44,180 nt of DNA from Gammaproteobacteria bacterium (lineage in GTDB: Bacteria; Pseudomonadota; Gammaproteobacteria; GCA-001735895), in the NCBI GenBank assembly GCA_024763505.1, contig JANTFI010000009.1:1-44180 (forward strand). Direction: 5' to 3'. Position numbers and translations under genes: made by a program. Shown piece by piece: positions 1,047-14,449 of the stretch. The first letter of the stretch is position 1. Every line of letters starts with the position of its first letter. Below the pieces are notes generated by a model. It had not been told where the DNA came from, did no database searches, and worked only from the letters and a program-made list of their open reading frames with translations.

Positions 1047-1628
1047 TTAAGACCCTAATTCGCATTGACCAAGCTGGGTGGTTCCTATTTTACAAAGCGC
1101 CACAACCGGACTTGTTTTGGAGTTCACGTCCAGTTCAGCGATATTGCTAAGGCCATCGCCATCCGCATCAAAGGCAGTCGTGTCATAATTGCTATCGGAA
1201 AATCCGATCAGATTCGTGCCTGTCGTGATTGTAAATGTTTTTTCTGCACGGGCGATTTCCAGCGGCCCATAGGGGGCAAGATCGTAAGTAAACAGAATAG
1301 TGAATGTCGTACTGCCGGCTGGAATATTCGTCACAGTGGCGCTGGCCGTGGTACCAGCAATCGTCATCGGTTGTGGAGTACCACCATTTACCGAGATGGT
1401 CGCGGTCAGGGTGCCTGCTCCCTGACTCAGAATAGTGCCAAAAATAGAATCAGGTAATTGAAACGACATGTTAACGTCAAGCCCTGAGGGGGCGGTATCT
1501 GATGATTTGCTATTACCACCACATCCAGACAATACAAATGCAGCGATCAACAAAAGTACAAAAGTGGGATTAATTGAATTGAGGATTTTTTTGTTAACTA
1601 AGCAAAACATTTCGCTAAACCATTCCAT
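1047..1628 (-). CDS. Lipoprotein with calcium-loop (thrombospondin type 3-like) motif
   Basis: A 193-residue protein with an N-terminal hydrophobic segment ending in a lipobox (VLSG-Cys36), so it should be lipidated and exported. The mature part starts GGNSKSSD, a flexible linker, then beta-rich sequence. Near the C-terminus DADGDGLSNIAELD is a calcium-binding DxDxDG loop of the thrombospondin type 3 / dockerin-like kind. Two cysteines (CKIGTTQLGQC) close the C-terminus. The start at 1628 has no strong ribosome site; Met7 (MFCLVNKK) would also leave a good lipoprotein signal. It sits just upstream of the fibre-like gene, and a paired role at the cell surface is possible. No specific family was recognised beyond the motif. 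Confidence 0.7.
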   Translation of the reverse strand: MEWFSEMFCLVNKKILNSINPTFVLLLIAAFVLSGCGGNSKSSDTAPSGLDVNMSFQLPDSIFGTILSQGAGTLTATISVNGGTPQPMTIAGTTASATVTNIPAGSTTFTILFTYDLAPYGPLEIARAEKTFTITTGTNLIGFSDSNYDTTAFDADGDGLSNIAELDVNSKTSPVVALCKIGTTQLGQCELGS

Positions 1629-3298: not shown

Positions 3299-3329
3299 TT
3301 GAACCGGGAAGGTCAACTTCTGCTATGAT
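3299..3329 (+). promoter_or_regulatory. Extended -10 sigma-70 promoter for the leader RNA / phnD-like operon
   Basis: TGCTATGAT at 3321-3329 is an extended -10 element (TGn plus TATGAT). TTGAAC at 3299-3304 is a possible -35 with a long 19-bp spacer, which an extended -10 tolerates. Transcription would begin near 3336, at the first base of the structured leader described next. Confidence 0.55.
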
Positions 3330-3335
3330 TATTGC

Positions 3336-3410
3336 GACGCCGGGAGGGTGTCCCGGAAAAGGCAGTTTGCGGCCGGACCCGGTCTGGCCGATGGTTTCCG
3401 GGCGTTTTTT
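3336..3410 (+). ncRNA. Candidate cis-regulatory leader RNA with attenuator terminator
   Basis: Three helices can be drawn by eye. Helix A: CCGGGA 3340-3345 with TCCCGG 3351-3356. Helix B: 3371-3378 with 3382-3389 (8 pairs, one G-U, 3-base loop). Helix C: CCCGGAAA 3352-3359 with TTTCCGGG 3395-3402, followed by CG and six T, i.e. an intrinsic terminator enclosing helix B. A and C share bases 3352-3356, so they exclude each other, as expected for an attenuator or riboswitch expression platform. The gene start lies 70-90 bases downstream. It matches no riboswitch class I can recall (GEMM, cobalamin, ykkC types, TPP and fluoride were considered). A free-standing small RNA ending at this terminator is the alternative. 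Confidence 0.5.
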
Positions 3411-3479
3411 ATCCAGCGCATTTCGGGTCGAGCCATAAAAAATTAAAAAGAATATCCCTTTTATTCGCTGTCGGGTGCT

Positions 3480-4379
3480 GTGTTTTCTGTGTTTTCTGTG
3501 TTACGTGTTTTACTTGCCATAGTAGGGCTTTCCGGTGCGCCGGTATTTGTGGCGGTCGCTCAGTCAACTGTGGTCGATGGCGCGTCGGATGCGGACAACG
3601 ACGGCAAGGTCGTGTATAGCTGGAGCGTGGTCCCCCAGTTTTCGCCCACCCGTGTCCATCAGGACTGGCGGCCTTTTCTCGACGAGCTGGAACAGCGCAC
3701 AGGCTTGTCTTTCGAACTCAAACCGGCTGATACTTTCAATTATTTTGAAAGCGGCATCCGCCAGCGCCGTTTCGATTTCTTATATGGCAATCCTTATCAA
3801 ACCCTGCTGGCCTACGAGCAAGGCGATTACACGCCACTGGTGCGGGATGAGCAACGGCGTCTGACCGGTATTCTGGTGGTCAGAAAGGATAGTCCGGTGC
3901 AGCATGTCAGCGATCTGGATGGTGCCCGCATCGCGTTTGCCGCACCCAATGCCTTTGCCGTATCTCTGTATATGCGCGCGTTACTGAAAGAAAAATTCGG
4001 CATCTCCTATATCGCCGACTACGTCGGTTCTCACAGTAATGCCTATCGAAAGGTTTTGCTGGGCCGTGATATGGCTTCCGGCGGGGTTTATCGCACGCTT
4101 AATTGGGAGCGCCTTGAAGTGATCGAAAACCTGCGAGTGATTTATGAAGCGCCGAGTACCATAACCCATGCGATTTCTGCACTCATCAGCTTGCCGCAAT
4201 CGGTGCGAGACCGGGTGACCCGGGCGATTCTGGAAATGGCCAGGACTGAACAGGGTCGAAAGCTGTTGACGCCGGTTTTCTTGCCGCAACCGATCGAAGC
4301 CGATTTCGAGCGGGATTATGCGCCGCTGAAACAACTCAAGCTGGATGACTACGTGGTCTGGGAGGAGCAATCACCATGA
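3480..4379 (+). CDS. PhnD-like periplasmic substrate-binding protein
   Basis: Up to 299 residues, a phosphate/phosphonate-type binding protein (PhnD superfamily, PF12974-like). The signal peptide VLRVLLAIVGLSGAPVFVAVA is followed by AQS, a likely cleavage point. Family landmarks: YSWSVVPQFSPTRVHQDWRPFLDELEQ, the FDFLYGNPYQ segment, GILVVRKDSPV.HVSDLDGARIAF, then the second lobe ending in a helical tail. No ATG is available: GTG 3480, 3489 or 3498 could each start, the last giving the most compact signal peptide. No ABC permease or ATPase accompanies it; instead it overlaps the next gene (GGDEF-EAL) by ATGA. It therefore probably acts as the ligand-sensing partner of that membrane signalling protein rather than in uptake. 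The ligand is unknown. Confidence 0.85.
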   Translation: MFSVFSVLRVLLAIVGLSGAPVFVAVAQSTVVDGASDADNDGKVVYSWSVVPQFSPTRVHQDWRPFLDELEQRTGLSFELKPADTFNYFESGIRQRRFDFLYGNPYQTLLAYEQGDYTPLVRDEQRRLTGILVVRKDSPVQHVSDLDGARIAFAAPNAFAVSLYMRALLKEKFGISYIADYVGSHSNAYRKVLLGRDMASGGVYRTLNWERLEVIENLRVIYEAPSTITHAISALISLPQSVRDRVTRAILEMARTEQGRKLLTPVFLPQPIEADFERDYAPLKQLKLDDYVVWEEQSP

Positions 4380-6850
4380 CCCGTTTCTGGCGAAACCTGC
4401 CCTTGCACCTGCAAATCGCGCTGGCCAGCTCGGTGATTTTGATGATCACCCTGTTGCTGACCACACTCTGGAATGTACGCGAGCAACAGCAGCAGTTACT
4501 CGAAAACAATGCCCGTCAGGCGATAGGTTTGGCGCGCACGGCGGCACTGGCTTCGCGCTATCTGGTGATTGCCGACAAGCTCGATGAACTCGAGGAATTG
4601 ATGCTACGGTTGGCACATTATCCTGATTTGCGCGAGTTGGCCGCTCTCGATGATCAAGGGCAGATTTTGACCGATATCCATGCCAGCGAGGGCGAGCCGA
4701 AAGTCAGTTATCAGTACACTCGTTACGTACTACCGATGGATGAGCAGGCAGACCCGCAACCGGTCCAGCAGGTTGGTGATAACACCCTGACGATCTGGTA
4801 TCCGATCAAAACCTCATCGCTGCTCGGCTGGATAAAACTGGAGCAGGATTTATCCGGCACCCGCCATTTGTTAAAAACGATTCTGCTGGATAATCTGCAA
4901 GCCTCGGCGCTGGCACTGGCCATCGATCTGCTGGTGCTGCTGGGAATTCTGTATCTGCCCGGCAAGCATTTTCGCCGTGCCGTGAAATTTGCCCAGCGTC
5001 TGGTCGATGACCCGGGCCAGCAACTCGAGCGCAGCGGTGCTTCGAGAGAAGTCGGGCAATTGATCGATGCGCTGAATGATACCTCGAGTCGCTTGTATCA
5101 GCAGCGGCAGAATCTGGAACAACTGAATACCGAACTGGAACATCGCGTTGAAACCCGAACCCGGGCGCTGGTCAAGAGTCGAGAAAGCGAAGTGTTGCTG
5201 CATCAGGCCATCACCCAGAGCCGGGTCGGTGTCGCGATGCTGGAACATGACTTTACGGTGATGGAATCCAATCCGTCCCTGCTGGCGATGAGTGGCTACG
5301 AACTGGATCAGTTGAAGGGCCGGGACGGGCTGGCCACTGTCTGGTCTGAAAAGAACCCGTCGCATCTGCTGCAAGACGTGAAGAAACTGTTGCTTCACGG
5401 TGAAACCTGGAATGGTGAAGTGTTGGCGCAGAATAAAAGTGGTGAGCGCTTCTGGGTACAACTGGGAATCACGCCGGTGACAAATTCGCGCGGAGAAACC
5501 AGTTACCTGTTGAGCATGGACGATATCTCCGACCGCAAGGCCTATGAGCAGGAATTGATCCATCAGGCCAATTATGACGGCTTGACCGGCTTGCCCAACC
5601 GGATGCTGGGCATGGATCGTTTGAAGCAATCACTGCAACAGGATCGCCGCAAAAATCGTAAAACCGTGTTACTGTATATTGATCTGGACCGATTCAAGCA
5701 AGTCAATGATACGCTGGGTCATCATGTCGGTGATTTGCTGTTGATTGAAACCGCCGGTCGATTGACCGCTTGCGTGCGAGATTACGACACGGTCGCGCGG
5801 CTCAGTGGTGATGAATTCATGGTGGTGTTAAGTGGAATTGTTGATGCCGTCACGGTGGAATCGATCGCTGAAAAAATTCTGGAATCGATTGCCTGTCCAT
5901 TCAAGATTGAAGAAAAGGATTTGCATATTCGGGCCAGTATCGGTATCGCGGTGTTCCCGGACGACAGCATGGATGCCGATGAGTTATTGCGTTACGCCGA
6001 TACCGCCATGTATCAGGCCAAACAACTTGGTCGCAACCGCTTCAAATACTATACCCAGTCGATGAATGAAGAAGCCCTTCAGCGCTTGCGTATCGATACC
6101 GCCATGCACTACGCGCTCGAAAACAAGGAGTTGACCATGGTGCTGCAACCCATTGTTAATAATAATAGTGCCATAGTGAGCGGGGCAGAAGCGCTGATGC
6201 GCTGGCAGTCTGAAAAACTGGGCATGGTTCGGCCGGATATTTTTATTCCGATCGCCGAAGAAAATGGTTTGATCGTAGCGATGGGGGAATGGATTCTGTA
6301 CCGCGCCTGCCAGACCGCAGCGACTATGGAGGGTGACTTTTTTATCACGGTCAATGTAGCGACGGCACAATTTCGAAAGCCTGGTTTTGTCCAGGTGGTG
6401 CAGGATGCGCTGGTCGATAGCGGATTGACTCCGTCCCGATTGCATCTGGAAATTACCGAAAACGTGTTGATGGAAAATACCGATGAAATCGAGCAAACCA
6501 TCCGGGGTATCGTCGAGCTGGGCGTGGAGCTGGTCATCGATGATTTCGGCACCGGCTATTCATCGCTTTCATACCTGACCCAGTTCCCCTGTACGGTGCT
6601 GAAGATCGACCGATGCTTTGTGCTCGACATGATGTCGAGCAAGCAGAGTGCCGGACTGGTTGAAGCGATTATCCAGATGGGACATTCGCTGAAGTTGAAA
6701 ATAATTGCCGAGGGCGTGGAGGATTTACCGCAACTGGAAAAAATACAGCAACTCGGCAGTGATTATATTCAGGGATATTATTTTTCTCCGCCGTTGACGG
6801 TCGAAGCCTTTTCTCAGTGGATGAGTGAACACCCGCATTCGCTGGCTTGA
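4376..6850 (+). CDS. Membrane PAS-GGDEF-EAL c-di-GMP signalling protein
   Basis: 824 residues. A first membrane helix (about 12-32), a periplasmic domain of about 140 residues and a second helix (about 180-197) are followed by a HAMP-like/coiled-coil linker, a PAS domain (about 270-385), GGDEF (about 405-560) and EAL (about 575-820). The cyclase signature is SGDEF (477-481), a variant found in active and inactive enzymes, with an RxxD inhibitory site RDYD at 468-471. The phosphodiesterase part keeps EAL (605-607), LEITEN, IDDFGTGYSS (722 onwards), KIDR and AEGVED, so c-di-GMP hydrolysis looks intact; the net activity cannot be predicted. Translation is coupled to the PhnD-like gene, whose periplasmic product could dock on the 140-residue sensor loop. 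Confidence 0.93.
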   Translation: MTRFWRNLPLHLQIALASSVILMITLLLTTLWNVREQQQQLLENNARQAIGLARTAALASRYLVIADKLDELEELMLRLAHYPDLRELAALDDQGQILTDIHASEGEPKVSYQYTRYVLPMDEQADPQPVQQVGDNTLTIWYPIKTSSLLGWIKLEQDLSGTRHLLKTILLDNLQASALALAIDLLVLLGILYLPGKHFRRAVKFAQRLVDDPGQQLERSGASREVGQLIDALNDTSSRLYQQRQNLEQLNTELEHRVETRTRALVKSRESEVLLHQAITQSRVGVAMLEHDFTVMESNPSLLAMSGYELDQLKGRDGLATVWSEKNPSHLLQDVKKLLLHGETWNGEVLAQNKSGERFWVQLGITPVTNSRGETSYLLSMDDISDRKAYEQELIHQANYDGLTGLPNRMLGMDRLKQSLQQDRRKNRKTVLLYIDLDRFKQVNDTLGHHVGDLLLIETAGRLTACVRDYDTVARLSGDEFMVVLSGIVDAVTVESIAEKILESIACPFKIEEKDLHIRASIGIAVFPDDSMDADELLRYADTAMYQAKQLGRNRFKYYTQSMNEEALQRLRIDTAMHYALENKELTMVLQPIVNNNSAIVSGAEALMRWQSEKLGMVRPDIFIPIAEENGLIVAMGEWILYRACQTAATMEGDFFITVNVATAQFRKPGFVQVVQDALVDSGLTPSRLHLEITENVLMENTDEIEQTIRGIVELGVELVIDDFGTGYSSLSYLTQFPCTVLKIDRCFVLDMMSSKQSAGLVEAIIQMGHSLKLKIIAEGVEDLPQLEKIQQLGSDYIQGYYFSPPLTVEAFSQWMSEHPHSLA

Positions 6851-13466: not shown

Positions 13467-14392
13467 TGCTGGCTCGTGGATTCCTCGTCGCCTTGCTGCT
13501 ATTGGTGGGCACGGCGGCGCAAGCCTTTGCGCTGAAAACCGAAAAGGTTACCGAAAACGTCTATGCGCTGGTCGGGGAGATCGGCCCGCGCAGTGCCGAA
13601 AATCATGCGCTCAACAATACTGTCGGTTTTGTGGTGACGCCCGGTGGCGTGGTGCTGGTCGGCTCGGGTGCGACACCGGTCGGCGCGAAATTGATCGAGC
13701 AATCGATTGCTGTGGTTACGCCCAAACCGATACGCTGGGTCGTTAATATCGGTGCGCAGGATCACCACTGGCTTGGCAACTCGTATTTTGCGGCAAAAGG
13801 CGTCCCGATCATCGCCCTGTCCAGAACGGTGGCCGAGCAGAAAAAGCATGTCGATGATCATCTTTCCCGGCTGAAACAGGTCGCGCCGACCGAGGTGGAT
13901 GCCGTCAAGCCGGCTTATGCGCCAGACCCGATCGACAAGGACCGGGTGGAGCTGAAACTTGGTGGTATCGACTTCGAATTACTGTGGCCGGGGGGCGGAC
14001 ATTTTTCCGGCGATGCGGTGTTATGGATGCCCGCACAGCGCGTTTTGTTTAGTGGCGATTATATCTTTAATGATCGCATGCTCGGCGTGCAACCGTATTC
14101 CCCATTGCTGCCCTGGCAACAATCCTTTCATAAACTGGCGGCCCTGAAACCGCGATGGGTCGTGCCGGGACACGGCCATGCCAGTGATTGGGCCAAGGCC
14201 CAACGCGACACCGGCGATTATCTCGACTGGCTGGTGAAAGAAGTCGGCAAGGCGCAGGAAGACTGGAAAGAAATCGGTGATACCGTTAATGATCTGGCCG
14301 ATGCGCCGCAGTTCGGGCATTTGCAGTTTTATGATGGCTGGCACCGCAAGAATATCAACCGCAGCTACCTGTATCTGGAAGCGAATCAATAA
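13466..14392 (+). CDS. Secreted metallo-beta-lactamase-fold protein with altered metal motif
   Basis: 308 residues from ATG 13466 (GTG 13463 also possible). The signal peptide ends near AAQAFA. The MBL fold is visible: NNTVGFVVTPGGVVLVGSG, VVNIGAQDHHWLGN, GGGHFSGDAVLW, FSGDYIFND and PGHGHASDW. The usual HxHxDH metal motif is replaced by GxQDHH, while the later His, Asp and His ligands are kept, so metal binding may be mononuclear or different. I recall the same NxGxQDHxWLGN pattern in other MBL proteins of sulfur bacteria, so it is probably a family trait. Coupling to a secreted rhodanese suggests work on persulfide or glutathione-type sulfur, as in persulfide dioxygenase-rhodanese pairs, but this is inference. 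Confidence 0.85.
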   Translation: MLARGFLVALLLLVGTAAQAFALKTEKVTENVYALVGEIGPRSAENHALNNTVGFVVTPGGVVLVGSGATPVGAKLIEQSIAVVTPKPIRWVVNIGAQDHHWLGNSYFAAKGVPIIALSRTVAEQKKHVDDHLSRLKQVAPTEVDAVKPAYAPDPIDKDRVELKLGGIDFELLWPGGGHFSGDAVLWMPAQRVLFSGDYIFNDRMLGVQPYSPLLPWQQSFHKLAALKPRWVVPGHGHASDWAKAQRDTGDYLDWLVKEVGKAQEDWKEIGDTVNDLADAPQFGHLQFYDGWHRKNINRSYLYLEANQ

Positions 14393-14403: not shown

Positions 14404-14449
14404 GCCGCGAAAAGAAGCAAATTATTTTGCATCTTTTCGCGGCTTTTTT
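14404..14449 (+). terminator. Strong Rho-independent terminator
   Basis: A perfect 12-bp stem, GCCGCGAAAAGA 14404-14415 with TCTTTTCGCGGC 14432-14443, a 16-base loop and six T at 14444-14449. It closes the rhodanese-MBL unit. The permease start is only 37 bases further on, leaving little room for a separate promoter, so partial read-through is possible. Confidence 0.92.

Follow-up and report, generated by a model that had tools for sequence, protein, structure and literature searches.

A putative structured 5' leader with a predicted terminator before the PhnD-like/PAS-GGDEF-EAL operon of a gammaproteobacterium: a lineage-specific candidate attenuator

Three kinds of described bacterial RNA come close to the element considered here, which occupies positions 3336-3410 of the window (contig C9, 44 kb, from a draft assembly of 3.08 Mb and 229 contigs). 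Attenuator leaders that work through an intrinsic terminator share with it a promoter followed by a short structured leader, a helix and U tract placed before the operon, and a further helix (helix A below) overlapping the 5' arm of the terminator. They differ in that neither a leader peptide with regulatory codons nor a known protein site was recognised in our element, which also shows no conservation, and in that a compatible 5' hairpin makes an antiterminator role of helix A doubtful here. The c-di-GMP riboswitches (the GEMM classes of Rfam) likewise lie in leaders of c-di-GMP genes, but the leader in the window matches none of them at gathering or relaxed thresholds. Terminator-ended small RNAs are of similar size and likewise have a 5' hairpin and a terminator with a U6 tail, whereas no relatives of this RNA were found and the only good promoter of the operon stands before it.

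The element and the two genes of the operon lie on the forward strand. The first gene (3480-4379) encodes a PhnD-like periplasmic binding protein (Phosphonate-bd, PF12974; Pfam E = 3.2e-47), and its stop is overlapped by a gene for a PAS-GGDEF-EAL protein (4376-6850; Pfam), after which comes a gene for a 7TMR-DISM GGDEF protein (Pfam). The upstream neighbour, on the opposite strand, is a YjdM/PhnA-domain gene (Pfam), with a 56-amino-acid ORF before it. The PhnD-like gene begins with GTG and has a weak ribosome site, and its true start is uncertain given the weak start codon context. When the read-through transcript is folded computationally, the leader sequence CGGAAAA (3354-3360) pairs with a TTTTCTG repeat near this GTG (about 3482-3490), which is arranged in tandem as CTGTGTTTT; if formed, such pairing might mask the start codon.

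Ahead of the element we identified a predicted sigma-70 promoter of the extended -10 type (3299-3329; TTGAAC, TGC-TATGAT), composed of the -35-like TTGAAC at 3299-3304, a 19-bp spacer and the extended -10 TGCTATGAT at 3321-3329. On a rough sigma-70 score, built on general hexamer frequencies, this site ranks sixth among 88,268 positions on both strands of the window, in agreement with the original prediction of an extended -10 promoter ahead of a compact RNA, and transcription would be expected to start at about 3336. The automated promoter scan does not report it because that scan accepts only spacers of 16-18. By the same rough score the interval from the T tract to the PhnD-like gene (3405-3480) contains no comparable promoter, its best site ranking 933rd.

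Several helices can be drawn within the leader. Helix A (3340-3356) pairs CCGGGA with TCCCGG (3340-3345/3351-3356) around a GGGTG loop, and the 8-bp terminator helix (3352-3402) pairs CCCGGAAA with TTTCCGGG (3352-3359/3395-3402) before a T6 tract at 3405-3410; all three had been described exactly as they occur in the sequence. The internal hairpin (3370-3390), previously given as 8 bp, comprises 8-9 bp including one G-U pair (3370 or 3371 to 3378 with 3382 to 3389 or 3390), has a CCG loop and forms with a pairing probability of about 1.0. Not included in the original description was a 5' hairpin, GACGCC-GGGAG-GGTGTC (3336-3352, pairs 3336-3341/3347-3352, one G-U), which appears in the folds of prefixes and among the suboptimal structures, and recurs in the folded read-through transcript. 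The minimum-free-energy fold instead contains an alternative closing helix, GACGCC/GGCGTT (3336-3406, pairs 3336-3341/3401-3406), that abuts the U tract. As a terminator the structure is atypical, with a large branched loop and, in its 7-8 bp form, 2-3 nt separating stem and U tract; because the terminator helix encloses 35 nt and ends 2 nt short of the T tract, it is not listed by a standard terminator scan.

How far these structures exceed chance was assessed with shuffled sequences. Perfect 8-bp helices abutting a run of at least five T occur twice in the window as opposed to 0.24 expected from shuffles. The second of them, at 14404-14444 with its T run reaching 14448, lies just past the end of an ORF at 14392 and is probably an ordinary gene terminator. 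Shuffling of the leader RNA itself reproduced the terminator helix in 183 of 20,000 cases (0.9%), and the terminator helix together with a competing hairpin in 4 of 20,000 composition-matched shuffles, although these comparisons were set up post hoc, with the element already seen, and therefore exaggerate significance. The total folding energy of the leader is ordinary (z = -1.34, with 22 of 200 shuffles equally stable), and the self-complementary word CCGG occurs five times in 75 nt where 0.56 copies are expected, so that alternative pairings arise readily. These last two properties, together with the lack of conservation anywhere searched, speak for one of the two main rival readings, a non-functional leader: untranslated sequence rich in GC and in CCGG whose pairing is fortuitous, without efficient termination or a regulatory role. 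We consider such a leader rather unlikely; against it, the combination of a terminator helix by a T6 tract with a competing hairpin is rare among the shuffles, even if it was recognised post hoc.

The folding of successive prefixes bears on whether the leader could act as a switch. Helix A, at -11.4 kcal/mol alone, is the first helix to form, is no longer optimal in prefixes longer than about 63 nt and has a low probability in the complete RNA. Once the 3' arm of the terminator is included, the best folds combine the 5' hairpin with a 7-bp terminator helix (-34.1 kcal/mol) or have a long closing helix, GACGCC/GGCGUU, that abuts the U tract (-34.5 kcal/mol). The fold with helix A and the internal hairpin comes to only about -28 kcal/mol, leaving the terminated folds ahead by some 6 kcal/mol. 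The original prediction held helix A and the terminator helix to be mutually exclusive. This stands for helix A and the full 8-bp helix, which have positions 3352-3356 in common, but not as a forced choice, as the 5' hairpin coexists with the 7-bp terminator helix. Since the 5' hairpin GACGCC/GGTGTC can form alongside the terminator helix, the RNA is not confined to a choice between helix A and termination, and its folded form does not require helix A. Going by these modelled energies, antitermination would have to draw on roughly 6 kcal/mol of stabilisation of helix A, or on kinetic trapping.

The explanation we favour, with a probability of about 0.5, is that the element is a structured 5' leader, specific to this lineage, which belongs to the PhnD-like/PAS-GGDEF-EAL operon and acts as an attenuator, possibly of the basal level, that lowers or tunes expression of the operon. 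It is favoured by the high rank of the promoter and the absence of another good one before the gene, by a terminator helix and T6 tract above chance expectation, by terminated folds that are more stable than the helix A fold, and by a conserved, tightly packed gene pair downstream. Transcription start, termination and regulation we infer from the sequence. RNA polymerase would start at about 3336 from the operon's own promoter, and the nascent RNA would fold into the 5' hairpin and the branched terminator helix, so that a fraction of transcripts may end in the U tract at about 3405-3410 while those that read through would express the operon; helix A, being the first to form, is a possible transient antiterminator. 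The order expected of an attenuator, promoter and then terminator before the first gene, is predicted from the sequence. None of the inspected homologues, however, not even the closest, is preceded by the element, so attenuation is not conserved among them.

Searches for other copies of the RNA returned none. Rfam gave no gathering-level match in the window and, at a relaxed threshold, only a chance match outside the element (E = 9.7), in keeping with the earlier failure to match the RNA to a known riboswitch class. No further copy was found in its own genome or in 40 other genomes of the family (DNA, pattern and single-sequence covariance-model searches), nor in 369 sampled genomes of the class (DNA and pattern searches), and searches of plasmids, phages and viral contigs yielded no match to the element. 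The covariance search that had been proposed as a check found no homologue in the 41 genomes of the family and hence no compensatory changes to count.

A few weak candidates were rejected. Beyond the element itself, the family-wide covariance-model search gave only weak chance matches (E 0.37-0.99), whose sequences, once inspected, appeared unrelated or coding. Weak matches to this model within homologous loci amount to simple hairpins or to alignments that had been forced. A 29-bp match of 90% identity in another family (locus L087 of genome G351, 1501-1529, minus strand), covering -7 to helix A, sits in an unrelated intergenic region, with what by eye is the end of a fumarase-like gene on one side and a further gene on the other, and lacks a terminator helix of this form; it was treated as chance because six congeners match only the neighbouring coding end and not the element. 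Another match, of 26 bp (L003), falls inside an apparent MnmG coding region (by eye). Reading the dyad GACGCC-N5-GGTGTC as a DNA operator was also set aside, with just two sites in the genome, too few for support.

These searches bear on the proposal of a new ligand-binding riboswitch, in which a small molecule would stabilise helix A or the terminator fold and so control the c-di-GMP operon. Helix A and the full terminator helix do share bases, helix A does come first in the prefixes, and the downstream gene encodes a ligand-binding protein by its Pfam match. Yet neither homologue nor covariation was found, the closest orthologous operons are without the element, similarity to Rfam families is lacking, and little sequence is left unpaired to form a binding pocket. 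With no conserved structure, no association with the gene among 44 homologues and no Rfam match, the anatomy of the element is left as the sole positive support, and we regard the proposal as highly improbable. Also very improbable is a riboswitch or protein-controlled attenuator of recent origin, restricted to this lineage, that would tune the operon through the choice between helix A and terminator.

Comparison with related operons placed the leader in the context of its genes. The PhnD-like protein has its four closest orthologues at loci L028, L029, L059 and L060; they are 53-62% identical to it, and in each the next gene encodes a PAS-GGDEF(-EAL) protein, overlapping or a few bases off, in the same gene order (domains read by eye from translations that end at the locus edge). 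In relatives of the same class, the PhnD-like protein and the membrane PAS-GGDEF-EAL protein are thus encoded by a conserved, tightly packed gene pair, as judged from sequence, and a literature search found no paper on a PhnD-type protein paired with a GGDEF/EAL protein. The suggestion of a promoter-proximal, terminator-like leader before a PhnD-like and GGDEF/EAL operon is supported by Pfam, by the promoter rank, by the terminator helix against chance and by the operon arrangement kept in relatives. Synteny through the YjdM/PhnA-domain gene was not informative: six relatives gave a good match, and in none of them is the adjoining region the same.

The leader RNA itself was not found upstream of the 44 inspected homologues, the four closest orthologues among them, and the nearest homologous loci have short leaders. 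In three of those four orthologues a promoter-like site precedes the gene by about 40 nt, and sites of the extended -10 type lie about 40-60 nt ahead of homologous genes in L028, L029, L035, L037, L038, L059 and L064. The motif TGCTANNNT (a TGCTA-type extended -10) occurs upstream of 9 of the 44 PhnD-like homologues, compared with about 2.5 in shuffles, and recurs for example in L035, L037, L038, L061 and L064. These similar sites suggest that the promoter in the window is the operon's own, with an extra leader placed after it. Some distant homologues carry terminator-like hairpins upstream, most of which probably end the preceding genes.

The position of similar promoters just upstream of homologous genes also speaks against a small RNA in its own right, about 70-75 nt long and made up of the 5' hairpin, the internal hairpin and a terminator with its U6 tail, that would adjoin the operon but be functionally separate from it. 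Such an RNA would have its own strong predicted promoter and terminator, and the fold with 5' hairpin and terminator is near-optimal; it would, however, leave the operon without another promoter, and no homologue appears in its own genome, the family or the class sample. We hold a separate small RNA to be rather unlikely, and the preferred reading remains a terminator-bearing leader of the operon.

The conserved unit among these bacteria is the gene pair and not the leader RNA. Close relatives of this pair of periplasmic sensor and c-di-GMP enzyme have a simple short leader only; if the leader described here controls termination, it would provide a compact, lineage-specific means of setting the level at which the pair is expressed.
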